This document shows positions 22,700 to 25,965 of a DNA stretch of 64,000 nt, piece after piece. Source of the DNA: Spirosomataceae bacterium TFI 002. Its GTDB lineage: Bacteria > Bacteroidota > Bacteroidia > Cytophagales > Spirosomataceae. Within the stretch, counting starts at the first letter, position 1; every line of letters begins with the position of its first letter. The notes beneath the pieces were generated by a model. It was not told the origin of the DNA and searched no databases. It saw only the letters and a list, made by a program, of their open reading frames with translations. The stretch covers positions 2,294,001 to 2,358,000 of the forward strand of contig LT907983.1 in NCBI GenBank assembly GCA_900230115.1. The letters run 5' to 3'. The position numbers and the translations under genes were made by a program.

Positions 22700-23146
22700 A
22701 TGAAAAAAATACTATCCTTTTTAACGATTTTATCTTTGACCTTTACCACTGCTATTGCTAGCGAGCCAGTTGATGAATTCAACTACGAAGGTGAAAACAT
22801 CTCTGCTGAGTTTGAGCAGCTTAATAAAATTGAAAACTACGTTCAACAAAACGAAGGGCTTACATTGGAAGGCCTTAAAGCTGAGAAATCTGATCTTGTT
22901 GATGGTATTTCTTTAAGTGCAGATGCTTCTGCTGCTGTTGCAGCTGACGAAATGCCACTTGGAATTCCAGCATTCTGGTGGGGATGTGTACTTGCAGTTC
23001 TAGGAGTAATTCTAGTATATGTACTTACTGATCAAGACAAAGAGCAAACTAAGAAAGCACTTTTCGGATGTTTAGTTTTTGCTGGAGCTTGGGTTATTTA
23101 TTATGTAGTTATCGTTGCAGTAATAGGTAGAAGTTTCTGGTTCTAA
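22700..23146 (+). CDS. Small exported membrane protein of unknown function
   Basis: The 148-residue protein has a signal peptide (about 1-20, TAIASEP), an acidic extracytoplasmic segment (about 21-85), and two transmembrane helices: FWWGCVLAVLGVILVYVLTD (about 93-112) and ALFGCLVFAGAWVIYYVVIVAVIG. A charged hinge DQDKEQTKK joins them. I do not recognise a named family. The motif PAFWWGCVLAVLG looks conserved in style with other Bacteroidota small proteins, but this is recollection. A strong terminator follows, so it is a separate transcript from the cluster downstream. Confidence 0.75.
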   Translation: MKKILSFLTILSLTFTTAIASEPVDEFNYEGENISAEFEQLNKIENYVQQNEGLTLEGLKAEKSDLVDGISLSADASAAVAADEMPLGIPAFWWGCVLAVLGVILVYVLTDQDKEQTKKALFGCLVFAGAWVIYYVVIVAVIGRSFWF

Positions 23147-23167
23147 ATTAGAATTCAATAAAATTTT

Positions 23168-23198
23168 GAAGCCCAGACTAGCAATTAGTTTGGGCTTC
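23168..23198 (+). terminator. Intrinsic terminator after the gene at 22700
   Basis: GAAGCCCAGACTA and TAGTTTGGGCTTC pair with one mismatch around a 5-nt loop, followed by TTCGTTTT. It separates the small membrane protein from the gene at 23227. Confidence 0.75.
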
Positions 23199-23226
23199 TT
23201 CGTTTTAGTACTACCCAATTAAAATA

Positions 23227-23955
23227 ATGAAATTGTATAAATTATTACTTATAGTCTTTCTTCTTAGCGGATTTAGCACACTTAACGCTCAGAAATTTTA
23301 TCGATTCAAAGCAGATGTATCTGTTAAAGACAAGCTTGCAAATAATACCTATAGACTAACTATGGGTAAAGTCTATTACGACAAGATCTATCGAAAAATA
23401 GTATACGATCTCACTTTCCCAAAAAAAGAAACATTGGTTGTTCAAGATACCACCATGTTCAAAATCAATGAAAAAGGAATTTTGGTATCATCAAATAAGA
23501 CAGTGCTCATGCCAGAATTTACTGTATTCCACTTGGCACTTACTGGAAAGCTTTTTGACTACGGTATCAATGCAATGCAAAGTGAAAAAAGTATTTACAA
23601 GGTTGGTAAGGTAGAGAAAACTACTCAAGGCGTAAAGACAACATGGGAGCCTGCAGATGATTATTTTGCCAAATACTTTGGTAATATTGTAATGCTTAAC
23701 AAAGACAAACGCTTAGATGCAATGGTTTTCTACAATGTGGAAGGTCAAATTGTGAGTAGGCAGTTTTTTAAAAAATATACGAGTGTTAAAGGTATTCAGT
23801 TTCCACAAGAAGTAACCATGATCAGTTATGGCGAAGATGGGACAAAAAACATTCAACTTACTACTTACAAAAATGTAGTAATTGATCAAACAGATGAAGA
23901 TGAAAAGTATCGTTACCGTATTCCTATTACTAAGTCTATTAAGTCTGTCAAGTAA
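23227..23955 (+). CDS. Secreted protein of unknown function, LolA-like in style
   Basis: The 242-residue protein has a signal peptide (MKLYKLLLIV to LNAQ, cleavage near residue 21). The rest is beta-rich with alternating hydrophobic strands: YRLTMGKVYYDKIYRKIVYDL, DTTMFKINEKGILVSSN, LDAMVFYNVEGQIVSRQFF. This pattern resembles the LolA/outer-membrane lipoprotein sorting fold, but there is no clear signature. The C-terminal 62 bp overlap the start of the YidD-like gene, so the two are translationally linked. Confidence 0.7.
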   Translation: MKLYKLLLIVFLLSGFSTLNAQKFYRFKADVSVKDKLANNTYRLTMGKVYYDKIYRKIVYDLTFPKKETLVVQDTTMFKINEKGILVSSNKTVLMPEFTVFHLALTGKLFDYGINAMQSEKSIYKVGKVEKTTQGVKTTWEPADDYFAKYFGNIVMLNKDKRLDAMVFYNVEGQIVSRQFFKKYTSVKGIQFPQEVTMISYGEDGTKNIQLTTYKNVVIDQTDEDEKYRYRIPITKSIKSVK

Positions 23956-24328
23956 TTGTTTGGGGCAATTGAATGCCAGCAAATACAAGAATATTATTCC
24001 TGACGGTAACAATAAAATTGAATACTGGCAGACAAAGAATAATAAAAACGAAGTGCAGGCGGCTTTCTCTGGATTGTTTCTTTTCTATAAGAGTTTTATC
24101 TCATCACAAGACCTTACCGTATGTACCTTTTCTCCGTCTTGTTCGGAGTACGGAATACTAGCTGTGAAAGGACATGGAGTTATCAAAGGTGGCCTCATGA
24201 CAATGGACAGACTTACAAGATGCAATGGACTTTCTCCAGAAAAGTACGAGGTAGACAAGTCAAAAATGCTACTCAAAGATGACCCTAATGACGCTTACTT
24301 AGTCCCTGTTGTTAGTAAAATAAAATAA
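23894..24328 (+). CDS. YidD-family protein with an N-terminal signal peptide
   Basis: The ATG at 23894 (or 23900) is chosen over a TTG at 23882 and opens a signal peptide (MKMKSIVTVFLLLSLLSLSSNCLGQ in parts). It gives 144 residues, longer than the usual 70-90 for YidD. The YidD core is unmistakable: FYKSFISSQ, TFSPSCSEYG, VKGHGVIKGGLMTMDRLTRCNG. Standard YidD is cytoplasmic-side, lies next to rnpA and yidC, and aids membrane protein insertion. Here the signal peptide predicts a location outside the cytoplasm, and the neighbours are secreted and TPR proteins. It overlaps the upstream gene by 62 bp and is 22 bp before the next. Confidence 0.88.
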   Translation: MKMKSIVTVFLLLSLLSLSSNCLGQLNASKYKNIIPDGNNKIEYWQTKNNKNEVQAAFSGLFLFYKSFISSQDLTVCTFSPSCSEYGILAVKGHGVIKGGLMTMDRLTRCNGLSPEKYEVDKSKMLLKDDPNDAYLVPVVSKIK

Positions 24329-24350
24329 TTTAAAACTTCTCTATACCTGA

Positions 24351-25181
24351 ATGAAGCGACTCATTGCTTTGCTGCTGTTTTTATTCTTTTCCACTTTCGC
24401 ACAAGCTCAAGACGACATTTACAATCTTGAAAACTCTAAGGAGTTTGCAGCCTATTTACTAGAATCTGGTCAGTACAAATCGGCGATTAATGAATACGAA
24501 AGAGTGGTTTTTATGGCTCCGAATGATCTTGAACAAAGTGTTTTGTTGCTCAAGTCATACCGCCTAGCCGAAGATTATGAACAAGGGATAATTAAAGCTT
24601 CAGCACTTTTCCCAAACCTTATAGAAATGCCAAAAGAACACTCTATTGAGTTTTCAAAGTCATTGATGAGCTTGAGAAGTTGGGACCGAGCTAACAACTT
24701 TTGGGATGGAAGCAAAACACTAGCTCAAGACGACAAAGTATTGCTAAAGACCACTGTTGAAATATTTGAAGGTGACTTTCAAAAGGCTCAAAAACAGCTG
24801 TCTAGTATTCAAGACAGCTTAAATATATTAGGAGCAAATTATAGATCAATCATAGACCAAGGATTGAATGGAAAACGCAAAAGCCCATTTGTAGCTGGCT
24901 TTCTTTCTACAGCCGTTCCGGGTTTAGGAAAGGTATACACTGGTGACTGGAAAGACGCCATTGTATCATTGATTTTTACTGGAGGAATGGCTTTTCAGGC
25001 AGTACGAAACTTCAATAAGCACGGCATAAACGACTATCGACCATGGGTCTACACTACGATAGGTACTGGATTTTACTTAGGTAATATATTAGGCTCAGTA
25101 AAATCAGCAAAGGATAAGAATAGAAAAAAAATTAACCTACTACAACATGAGGCTAGCGATTATTTTAATTCTTATTATTAA
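24351..25181 (+). CDS. TPR-like protein with C-terminal PGLG membrane domain (copy 1)
   Basis: The 276-residue protein has a signal peptide (MKRLIALLLF to FAQAQ), a helical-repeat region of TPR style (about 25-165; EFAAYLLESGQYKSAINEYERVVFMAPND), and a C-terminal region with PGLGKVYTGDW at 190-200 followed by hydrophobic IVSLIFTGGMAF and a YLGNILGSVKSAKDKN tail. The PGLGxxYxGDW block looks like the DUF5683/TM2-like membrane motif. The next gene encodes a paralogue with the same layout. The two overlap by 35 bp. Function is not known. Confidence 0.75.
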   Translation: MKRLIALLLFLFFSTFAQAQDDIYNLENSKEFAAYLLESGQYKSAINEYERVVFMAPNDLEQSVLLLKSYRLAEDYEQGIIKASALFPNLIEMPKEHSIEFSKSLMSLRSWDRANNFWDGSKTLAQDDKVLLKTTVEIFEGDFQKAQKQLSSIQDSLNILGANYRSIIDQGLNGKRKSPFVAGFLSTAVPGLGKVYTGDWKDAIVSLIFTGGMAFQAVRNFNKHGINDYRPWVYTTIGTGFYLGNILGSVKSAKDKNRKKINLLQHEASDYFNSYY

Positions 25182-25965
25182 TAGTTTTATTGGCAGGGCT
25201 CAATCTATTGAGGCAACCTACGAACTTGGCAATCTACTTTATTCAGAAGGGAATTTTTCTGCTGCCGAAGACGTGCTTCGCCGTGTGCTTTATTTTGATA
25301 AAAATGAAGAGTATGGAGCCAAAGTCAACCTTATTTATGCAAATAGTCTATATCACTCAGGCAAATTCTCGGAGGCGAATTACTATTATGACCTAGCTTA
25401 TTTCTCTGCTTCCGACGCTTCAAAAGTTGATATTCTTTTACAAAAAACCTCATGCTATCTATTGTTGCAAAACTATAGCTATGCACGAATAGAGCTTTTT
25501 AACCTTCCCGAAAGCTTGAATGAAGATCAAGACAAAATGAAAGTGTTTTATACCGCAATGCTTGAGTTTGCGGAGGGCAATTTTCCAGAGTCAGAGGATG
25601 CATTCAAACAAATAGCGTCAGATACTACACGGGTTGATGTGCTATTTGATAAAAACACAAAAATTGATAAACTCAAGCCAAAAACTGCAAAAATTCTCAG
25701 CATCATTGTACCAGGCCTAGGGCAGATATACGCTGGAGATTGGAAAGCAGGGATTAACAGCCTTGTGCTTACAGGCGGTCTGTTTTACTTGGGTCTTAAT
25801 AGTGGAATTAAAAATTCATTTCTGGATGCAGCAATAAGTGTTTTGCCGTGGTTTCAACGCTACTACATGGGGGGCTTCAAAAAAGCAGAGCTAATAGCTA
25901 AGGCCAAAATACTGGAGAGACGCCATGAGGTTTTCAATGAATTACTTGAGGTAGTTGAAAAATAA
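25147..25965 (+). CDS. TPR-like protein with C-terminal PGLG membrane domain (copy 2)
   Basis: The 272-residue protein has the same plan as its neighbour: signal peptide (to about residue 18, GRAQS), TPR-like repeats (about 20-155; ELGNLLYSEGNFSAAEDVLRRVLYF), then PGLGQIYAGDW at 189-199, a hydrophobic NSLVLTGGLFYLGL, and a lysine-rich tail. The motif is at almost the same position in both proteins, so this is a tandem duplication that has diverged strongly. It ends the cluster; a hairpin follows before the convergent DUF1080 gene. Confidence 0.75.
   Translation: MRLAIILILIINSFIGRAQSIEATYELGNLLYSEGNFSAAEDVLRRVLYFDKNEEYGAKVNLIYANSLYHSGKFSEANYYYDLAYFSASDASKVDILLQKTSCYLLLQNYSYARIELFNLPESLNEDQDKMKVFYTAMLEFAEGNFPESEDAFKQIASDTTRVDVLFDKNTKIDKLKPKTAKILSIIVPGLGQIYAGDWKAGINSLVLTGGLFYLGLNSGIKNSFLDAAISVLPWFQRYYMGGFKKAELIAKAKILERRHEVFNELLEVVEK

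Follow-up and report, generated by a model that had tools for sequence, protein, structure and literature searches.

The question raised by the locus described here is why a bacterium would encode a YidD protein with an export signal. Standard YidD, a protein of the cytoplasmic membrane face, helps YidC-dependent insertion; work on the E. coli YidD is reportedly due to Yu et al. in 2011 (cited in PMC8082313), and the protein is nearly universal but, to our knowledge, poorly understood. In this study, we analysed a stretch of 64,000 nucleotides (hereafter the window; contig LT907983.1, positions 2,294,001 to 2,358,000) of Spirosomataceae bacterium TFI 002, a member of the Cytophagales whose genome is a single contig of 5,461,465 bases. 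Five open reading frames (ORFs), A to E, all on the plus strand, lie at the coordinates given by an earlier reading made from the letters alone (the sequence-only reading). C encodes a YidD-domain protein, B is a candidate LolA-like carrier, and D and E are paralogues that combine tetratricopeptide repeats (TPRs) with a PGLG motif. Our tentative answer, held with somewhat less than even confidence, is that C is an extracytoplasmic YidD paralogue that would act with a D/E scaffold at the membrane surface, probably in the placement of envelope lipids or proteins. At sequence level, the comparisons below establish that export signals are predicted, that the genes keep a fixed order in which they abut or overlap, that they co-occur, that C is fused to D in a single instance, that the D/E pair is old and that the exported YidDs bear a residue signature of their own; from these we infer a complex, its docking on a membrane, a client and an activity.

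The two YidD proteins of the genome

The YidD of the window is an additional copy and not a replacement of the standard protein. A YidD search of the genome gave two matches, C and a higher-scoring copy (100.6 bits; G000:C1:3366162) of 69 residues with the C-terminus GGSGDDPVP, and YidD was found in 294 of the 296 phylum genomes searched. The sequence-only reading had allowed that C might be the only yidD of its genome, which is not so, and had asked whether a second, standard yidD lies near rnpA. The standard copy does exist elsewhere in the genome, but it is flanked by a 112-residue ORF and a 630-residue ORF (the latter read as SerA-like) and not by rnpA. C itself exceeds the curated cut-offs of both YidD families, PF01809 of Pfam (66.5 bits, cut-off 27) and TIGR00278 of NCBIfam (55.4 bits, cut-off 40), and PF01809 was matched by all 23 of its aligned relatives.

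Aligning 41 exported with 32 standard YidDs, after one duplicate row had been excluded, revealed what the two groups share and where they part, although the standard set consists mostly of the 30 best-scoring YidDs of the phylum search and is thereby biased toward textbook sequences. Tyr65, Cys77, Cys83 and Arg106 are invariant in both sets, and C retains the conserved core by which PF01809 proteins are recognised (Tyr, Cys-x5-Cys-Ser and Arg). Position 105, in contrast, is Asp in 40 of the exported rows and Glu in the remaining one, whereas the standard rows have Lys, Trp, Arg or Asn there and never Asp (0/32). Arg78 is present in every standard row versus 2/41 exported rows, DPVP occurs in 20/32 versus 0/41, and Gly117 and Asp119, found in 32/32 standard rows, are outside the five commonest letters in the exported set. 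C reads CTFSPSCS where the standard sequence is CRFxPTCS, and the GG-D-PVP tail is missing. The earlier statement that C has the full family motifs is therefore correct for the Tyr/Ser/Cys..Cys/Arg core and incorrect for the CRFxPTCS arginine and the tail at the C-terminus. The third cysteine is retained in 23 of the 41 exported rows; in 16 it is replaced by Asp (DRFTRD versus DRLTRC), a replacement that is frequent in the second lineage set introduced below (L143, L144, L151).

The exported domain is also less basic. Over residues 54–113 the mean net charge is +7.6 (standard deviation 0.8) in standard and +1.7 (standard deviation 3.5) in exported YidDs (p 2e-11, relatedness ignored), with values of +2 for C and +7 for the standard copy of the same genome. 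Such a reduction would be expected if the domain had moved off the cytoplasmic face of the membrane, which is an argument rather than a test. Compared with standard YidD, C thus differs in having Asp105 in place of Lys, Trp, Arg or Asn, in the loss of Arg78 and GG-D-PVP, in its lower charge, in being encoded with D and E and not alone, and in a predicted signal peptide, an export signal being foreign to a YidD of the cytoplasmic face.

The N-terminus of C is hydrophobic (hydropathy 1.95 over 19 residues), and the protein has no other strong hydrophobic segment. In Bacteroidetes most products of signal peptidase I start with glutamine, according to the accessible text of PMC5837995. Our Gln test, which asks for a hydrophobic core, then a small-residue site and then Gln, was passed among aligned relatives by 23/23 C, 23/23 D, 22/22 E and 12/18 B proteins, and by 1/30 standard YidDs. 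The Gln behind the predicted signal peptides of C, D and E fits the signal peptidase I rule as that text words it (PMC5837995). Therefore, we read C, D, E and usually B as exported, and the signal peptide predicted for C by the sequence-only reading is kept in its relatives. A mis-called start of C was considered and rejected, since related genes share the start and keep the signal peptide. Possibly, the N-terminus of C is instead an uncleaved anchor that ties the protein to the inner membrane with its domain turned toward the periplasm, the partnership being unchanged. The lone hydrophobic segment would suit such an anchor, but the Gln after a small-residue site in 23/23 C proteins resembles substrates of signal peptidase I (as far as the accessible text of PMC5837995 describes them) and leads us to regard retention of the anchor as improbable.

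Conservation of the gene set in relatives and across the phylum

Searches of 59 genomes with C yielded 20 regions that were taken for good scores or long frames and so form a biased sample. The order B-C-D-E is found in 16 of them; the remainder have C-D-E (one), C-D (one), B-C (one) or a standard-looking YidD only (L051). Carriers in this near-relative set include strains of Jiulongibacter and Lacihabitans, Rhabdobacter, and metagenome-assembled genomes labelled Leadbetterella and Runella, and two genomes (G055 and G044) have two such loci each. The operon is present in other families of the order to which the window genome belongs, and identity to the window drops to 13–22% in the most distant members.

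For the phylum Bacteroidota as a whole, a D profile was run on 296 genomes and YidD on 296 genomes drawn in the same way and under the same handles; at most eight candidates per genome were scored in the D search, which makes absences soft. A strong D match (E<=1e-10) was found in 34 genomes, an extra YidD (at least two YidD matches in the genome) in 41, and both in 33. An extra YidD accordingly accompanies 33 of the 34 D-positive genomes versus 8 of the 262 others (Fisher p 5e-35, relatedness uncorrected), and it adjoins D in all 33 genomes with both. By kinship, the D positives comprise the window genome, one of two others of its family and 32 of 223 others of the phylum. Thirty loci from the D search comprise 28 with C-D-E, one with a C-D fusion and one with C-D, the other three genomes being G064, G067 and G286. 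A second set of 20 regions, from genomes partly shared with the D search, has C-D-E in 18. As a control, 30 standard-YidD loci with 1.5 kb flanks contained B, D or E in 0/30 cases at E<=1e-3, and one weak D-like match (0.0044) was seen among them. The gene order, whose restriction to this strain the sequence-only reading had left conceivable, thus recurs both in relatives and across the phylum.

Departures from the association are few. G193 has a D-like match without a second YidD. Eight genomes have a second YidD match and no strong D: in seven the match corresponds to YidD-like ORFs without D or E in the 3 kb region, and in the eighth (G324, L150) it is under the Pfam cut-off and an ORF scan found no YidD. 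In four genomes (L146–L149; families f24 and f25) the second YidD is a divergent one accompanied by neither D nor E, and in L147–L149 it is preceded on the same strand, at a distance of a few hundred bases, by a response-regulator-like ORF. D had no match in plasmids, and in viral contigs it gave six pattern matches, none of which was confirmed.

In one case, L089 (the same gene as L170), a single protein of 400 residues is composed of a signal peptide, YidD domain, TPR part and PGLG domain. In such a fusion the YidD domain would share its side of the membrane with the TPR part, and the case argues for a physical partnership. It also bears on the explanation that the genes stay together by descent only, with no shared function. 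In the second set the surroundings of the operon (acyl-CoA dehydrogenase, RlmN-like) are indeed conserved as well, as that explanation would have it, but from one lineage to another the flanks change and C-D-E alone persists, sometimes joined by B, identities go down to about 13–25%, and one genome has C and D as a single protein; we consider descent alone highly improbable. In four of the 20 regions of the second lineage set (L153, L158, L164, L166), genes for LemA and a TPM-domain protein directly follow E on the same strand. They were set aside as a functional link because the wider neighbourhood is co-inherited there too.

The D and E pair and the neighbouring genes

The profiles of D and E match each other over 263 columns (probability 99.6). 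In a tree of both, 36 first genes and 36 second genes are split by one branch, 72/72 (SH-aLRT 99); regions with a single D-like gene (L039, L170, L171) were left out, and L040 and L051 yielded no D or E. The clean split indicates that the duplication predates the split of these lineages, or that the pair moved as a unit. TPR repeats are present in both proteins, in E by its TPR_2 score (27.4 bits, cut-off 27) and in D by alignment of its model. The latter (11 sequences; predicted local distance difference test, pLDDT, 90.4) has TPR-like helices at residues 26–173, further helices around PGLG and a long helix at the C-terminus. Its matches in the PDB are generic TPR chains (e.g., Z 14.1, 145 residues, 3.5 Å), a comparison that mostly tests the TPR part and says nothing on function. 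Sixteen of the 19 columns of D conserved at >=90% fall within residues 178–249, which is the PGLG part, and the first residue of the motif is 190 in D and 189 in E, exactly where the sequence-only reading had placed it.

Both proteins carry PGLGxxYxG, in likeness to the DUF5683 and TM2 membrane domains, with scores in the window below the respective cut-offs (DUF5683, PF18935, cut-off 26.7: D 18.3 and E 25.4 bits; TM2, PF05154, cut-off 27.9: D 13 bits) and weak DUF5683 matches in 7/23 D and 13/22 E members. Unlike those domains, D and E have an N-terminal TPR arm and a signal peptide and form a fixed pair behind YidD. Their resemblance to TPR scaffolds speaks against a role in which C leaves the cell as a membrane-active factor akin to a haemolysin, chaperoned by D and E. 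Staphylococcal surveys include YidD among the haemolysin genes, as far as the accessible text of PMC7011549 and PMC4591658 indicates, but no outer-membrane secretion domain was noticed by eye (no tool-based search was made), and a released toxin seems to us far-fetched.

Table 1. Genes and other features of the locus, numbered from the first letter of the window.
Feature	Position	Strand	Observation
A, small exported protein (148 residues)	22700-23146	+	Predicted signal peptide and two C-terminal hydrophobic segments; local neighbour, non-core
Terminator-like hairpin between A and B	23168-23198	+	Consensus match
B, predicted exported LolA-like protein (242 residues)	23227-23955	+	LolA-like at profile level
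C, predicted exported YidD-domain protein (144 residues)	23894-24328	+	Signal peptide stops before Gln25; start and Gln25 conserved
B/C overlap, 62 nt	23894-23955	+	Overlap or tight junction in relatives too
D, predicted exported TPR protein with C-terminal PGLG hairpin (276 residues)	24351-25181	+	Confident model; DUF5683-like profile match below cut-off; conserved columns mostly 178-249
E, paralogue of D (272 residues)	25147-25965	+	Profile match to D; TPR_2

The overlap of B and C (Table 1) is as the sequence-only reading had it; C and D are separated by 22 nt, and D and E overlap by 35 nt. The terminator it had noted after A is likewise present as a hairpin matching the consensus, which is weak evidence by itself (4 sites in the 3.6 kb scanned versus a mean of 2.3 in shuffles).

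The LolA likeness of B appears at profile level in most of its members and is not seen in the window protein itself. The latter matches only DUF4292 (PF14125), at 17.9 bits and below the cut-off of 23. LolA_like (PF17131) is matched by 14 of the 18 aligned members at E<=0.1 (best 2.2e-5), the window member not among them, and DUF4292 by eight of the 18 at the same threshold; all these likenesses to known families are weak, and the best solved match of B by sequence has an E of 0.11. In Leptospira, yidC, yidD and lolA are upregulated together, according to the accessible text of PMC13066512, which concerns expression and not this operon.

Whether A belongs to the cluster had been left open by the sequence-only reading. 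A, whose two hydrophobic segments have hydropathies of 2.4 and 2.6 over 19 residues, is upstream of B in nine distinct loci of near relatives and is thus a local member of the neighbourhood; BLAST did not find it next to the operon in those regions of the near-relative set that are more distant. In Lacihabitans loci (L036, 6670-8428; L056, L058, L060) A is repeated in tandem, two or three copies preceding B. A different small protein, signal-like at its N-terminus and of TM2 type at its C-terminus, is encoded convergently about 40–230 bases from the end of E in 11 of the 20 Cytophagales regions (L041–L053, e.g., L050 3794-4231). Two such proteins were compared with Pfam TM2 (cut-off 27.9), of which one passes with 49.9 bits and the other fails with 17, and the group has a remote profile likeness to A (probability 93.8, signal peptide included). 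In addition, a small glycine-rich exported protein, read as barrel-like, is found on either side in the flanks of eight regions; one example had no Pfam hit.

A possible role at the envelope

The proposal of the sequence-only reading had two parts. Its first, that a distinct YidD is conserved together with a LolA-like protein and paired TPR/PGLG paralogues, is borne out, and its second, a function in membrane or envelope assembly, fits the evidence and would be our inference too. In the scheme we favour, C would be exported via Sec, be cleaved by signal peptidase I and act on the periplasmic side, with C, D and E as partners made from one tightly packed operon, which the LolA-like carrier B would join in Cytophagales and one other lineage. 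D and E would form a paired scaffold that docks on the membrane surface through its semi-hydrophobic PGLG hairpins at the C-termini, and their TPR arms may hold a client or B. The amphipathic YidD domain would pack on the same membrane face and ease the insertion or transfer of a hydrophobic client, such as a lipid, lipoprotein or membrane protein.

Several observations weigh against this scheme. At E<=1e-10, D was found in none of the nine same-order and none of the 61 same-class genomes sampled, which makes the module patchy. The Gln test was passed less fully by the phylum-wide loci (C 24/27, D 22/28, E 22/26); of the three C failures, two still end in PQ by eye and the third is a long frame without an assigned start. 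The test is also loose, as 12 of 47 other long ORFs of the window pass it, several of them plainly exported. The YidD tree from the corrected alignment has the standard proteins on one side of a branch (93/96) and requires two changes for the exported group; exported YidDs form one group in 30% of its bootstrap trees, with long branches flagged, and a single common origin of them thus lacks support from the tree. The AlphaFold model of C (10 sequences) has a pLDDT of 49.6 and was not used for fold claims, and no solved relative of C was found by sequence at E<=1. The PGLG part of D has a modest hydropathy (1.2 over 19 residues), leaving it unsure whether docking would be spanning, re-entrant or a peripheral contact. 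Lastly, B lies beside the operon in only two of the 18 C-D-E regions of the second set, both from the same genus, and its lack at the other 16 indicates that the LolA-like carrier is inessential.

The last point also counts against the idea that the YidD domain is a lipid-binding or lipid-transfer accessory, and not an insertion factor, that with B and D/E moves lipids or lipoproteins across the periplasm. Such a role would agree with the resemblance of B to LolA-like carriers and with the altered standard-YidD residues and charge of C, but with B missing beside the operon in most second-set regions we think it rather unlikely. We are similarly doubtful of the most far-reaching form of our favoured scheme, an ancient envelope machine that would be the extracytoplasmic counterpart of YidC/YidD, in which the exported YidD, together with a TPR-PGLG heterodimer of D and E, would insert or place hydrophobic clients from the periplasmic side and a LolA-like carrier would feed it in some lineages.

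Within the open-access literature, as far as it was covered, neither an exported YidD nor this operon was found described. Family models label C a 'membrane protein insertion efficiency factor' even though it lacks several residues of the standard group and the expected location, and that label should be treated with caution. An exported YidD that keeps fixed partners, occurs once as a natural fusion and shows defined residue changes may offer a handle on the role of the YidD domain at membranes, and it points to an undescribed envelope module.

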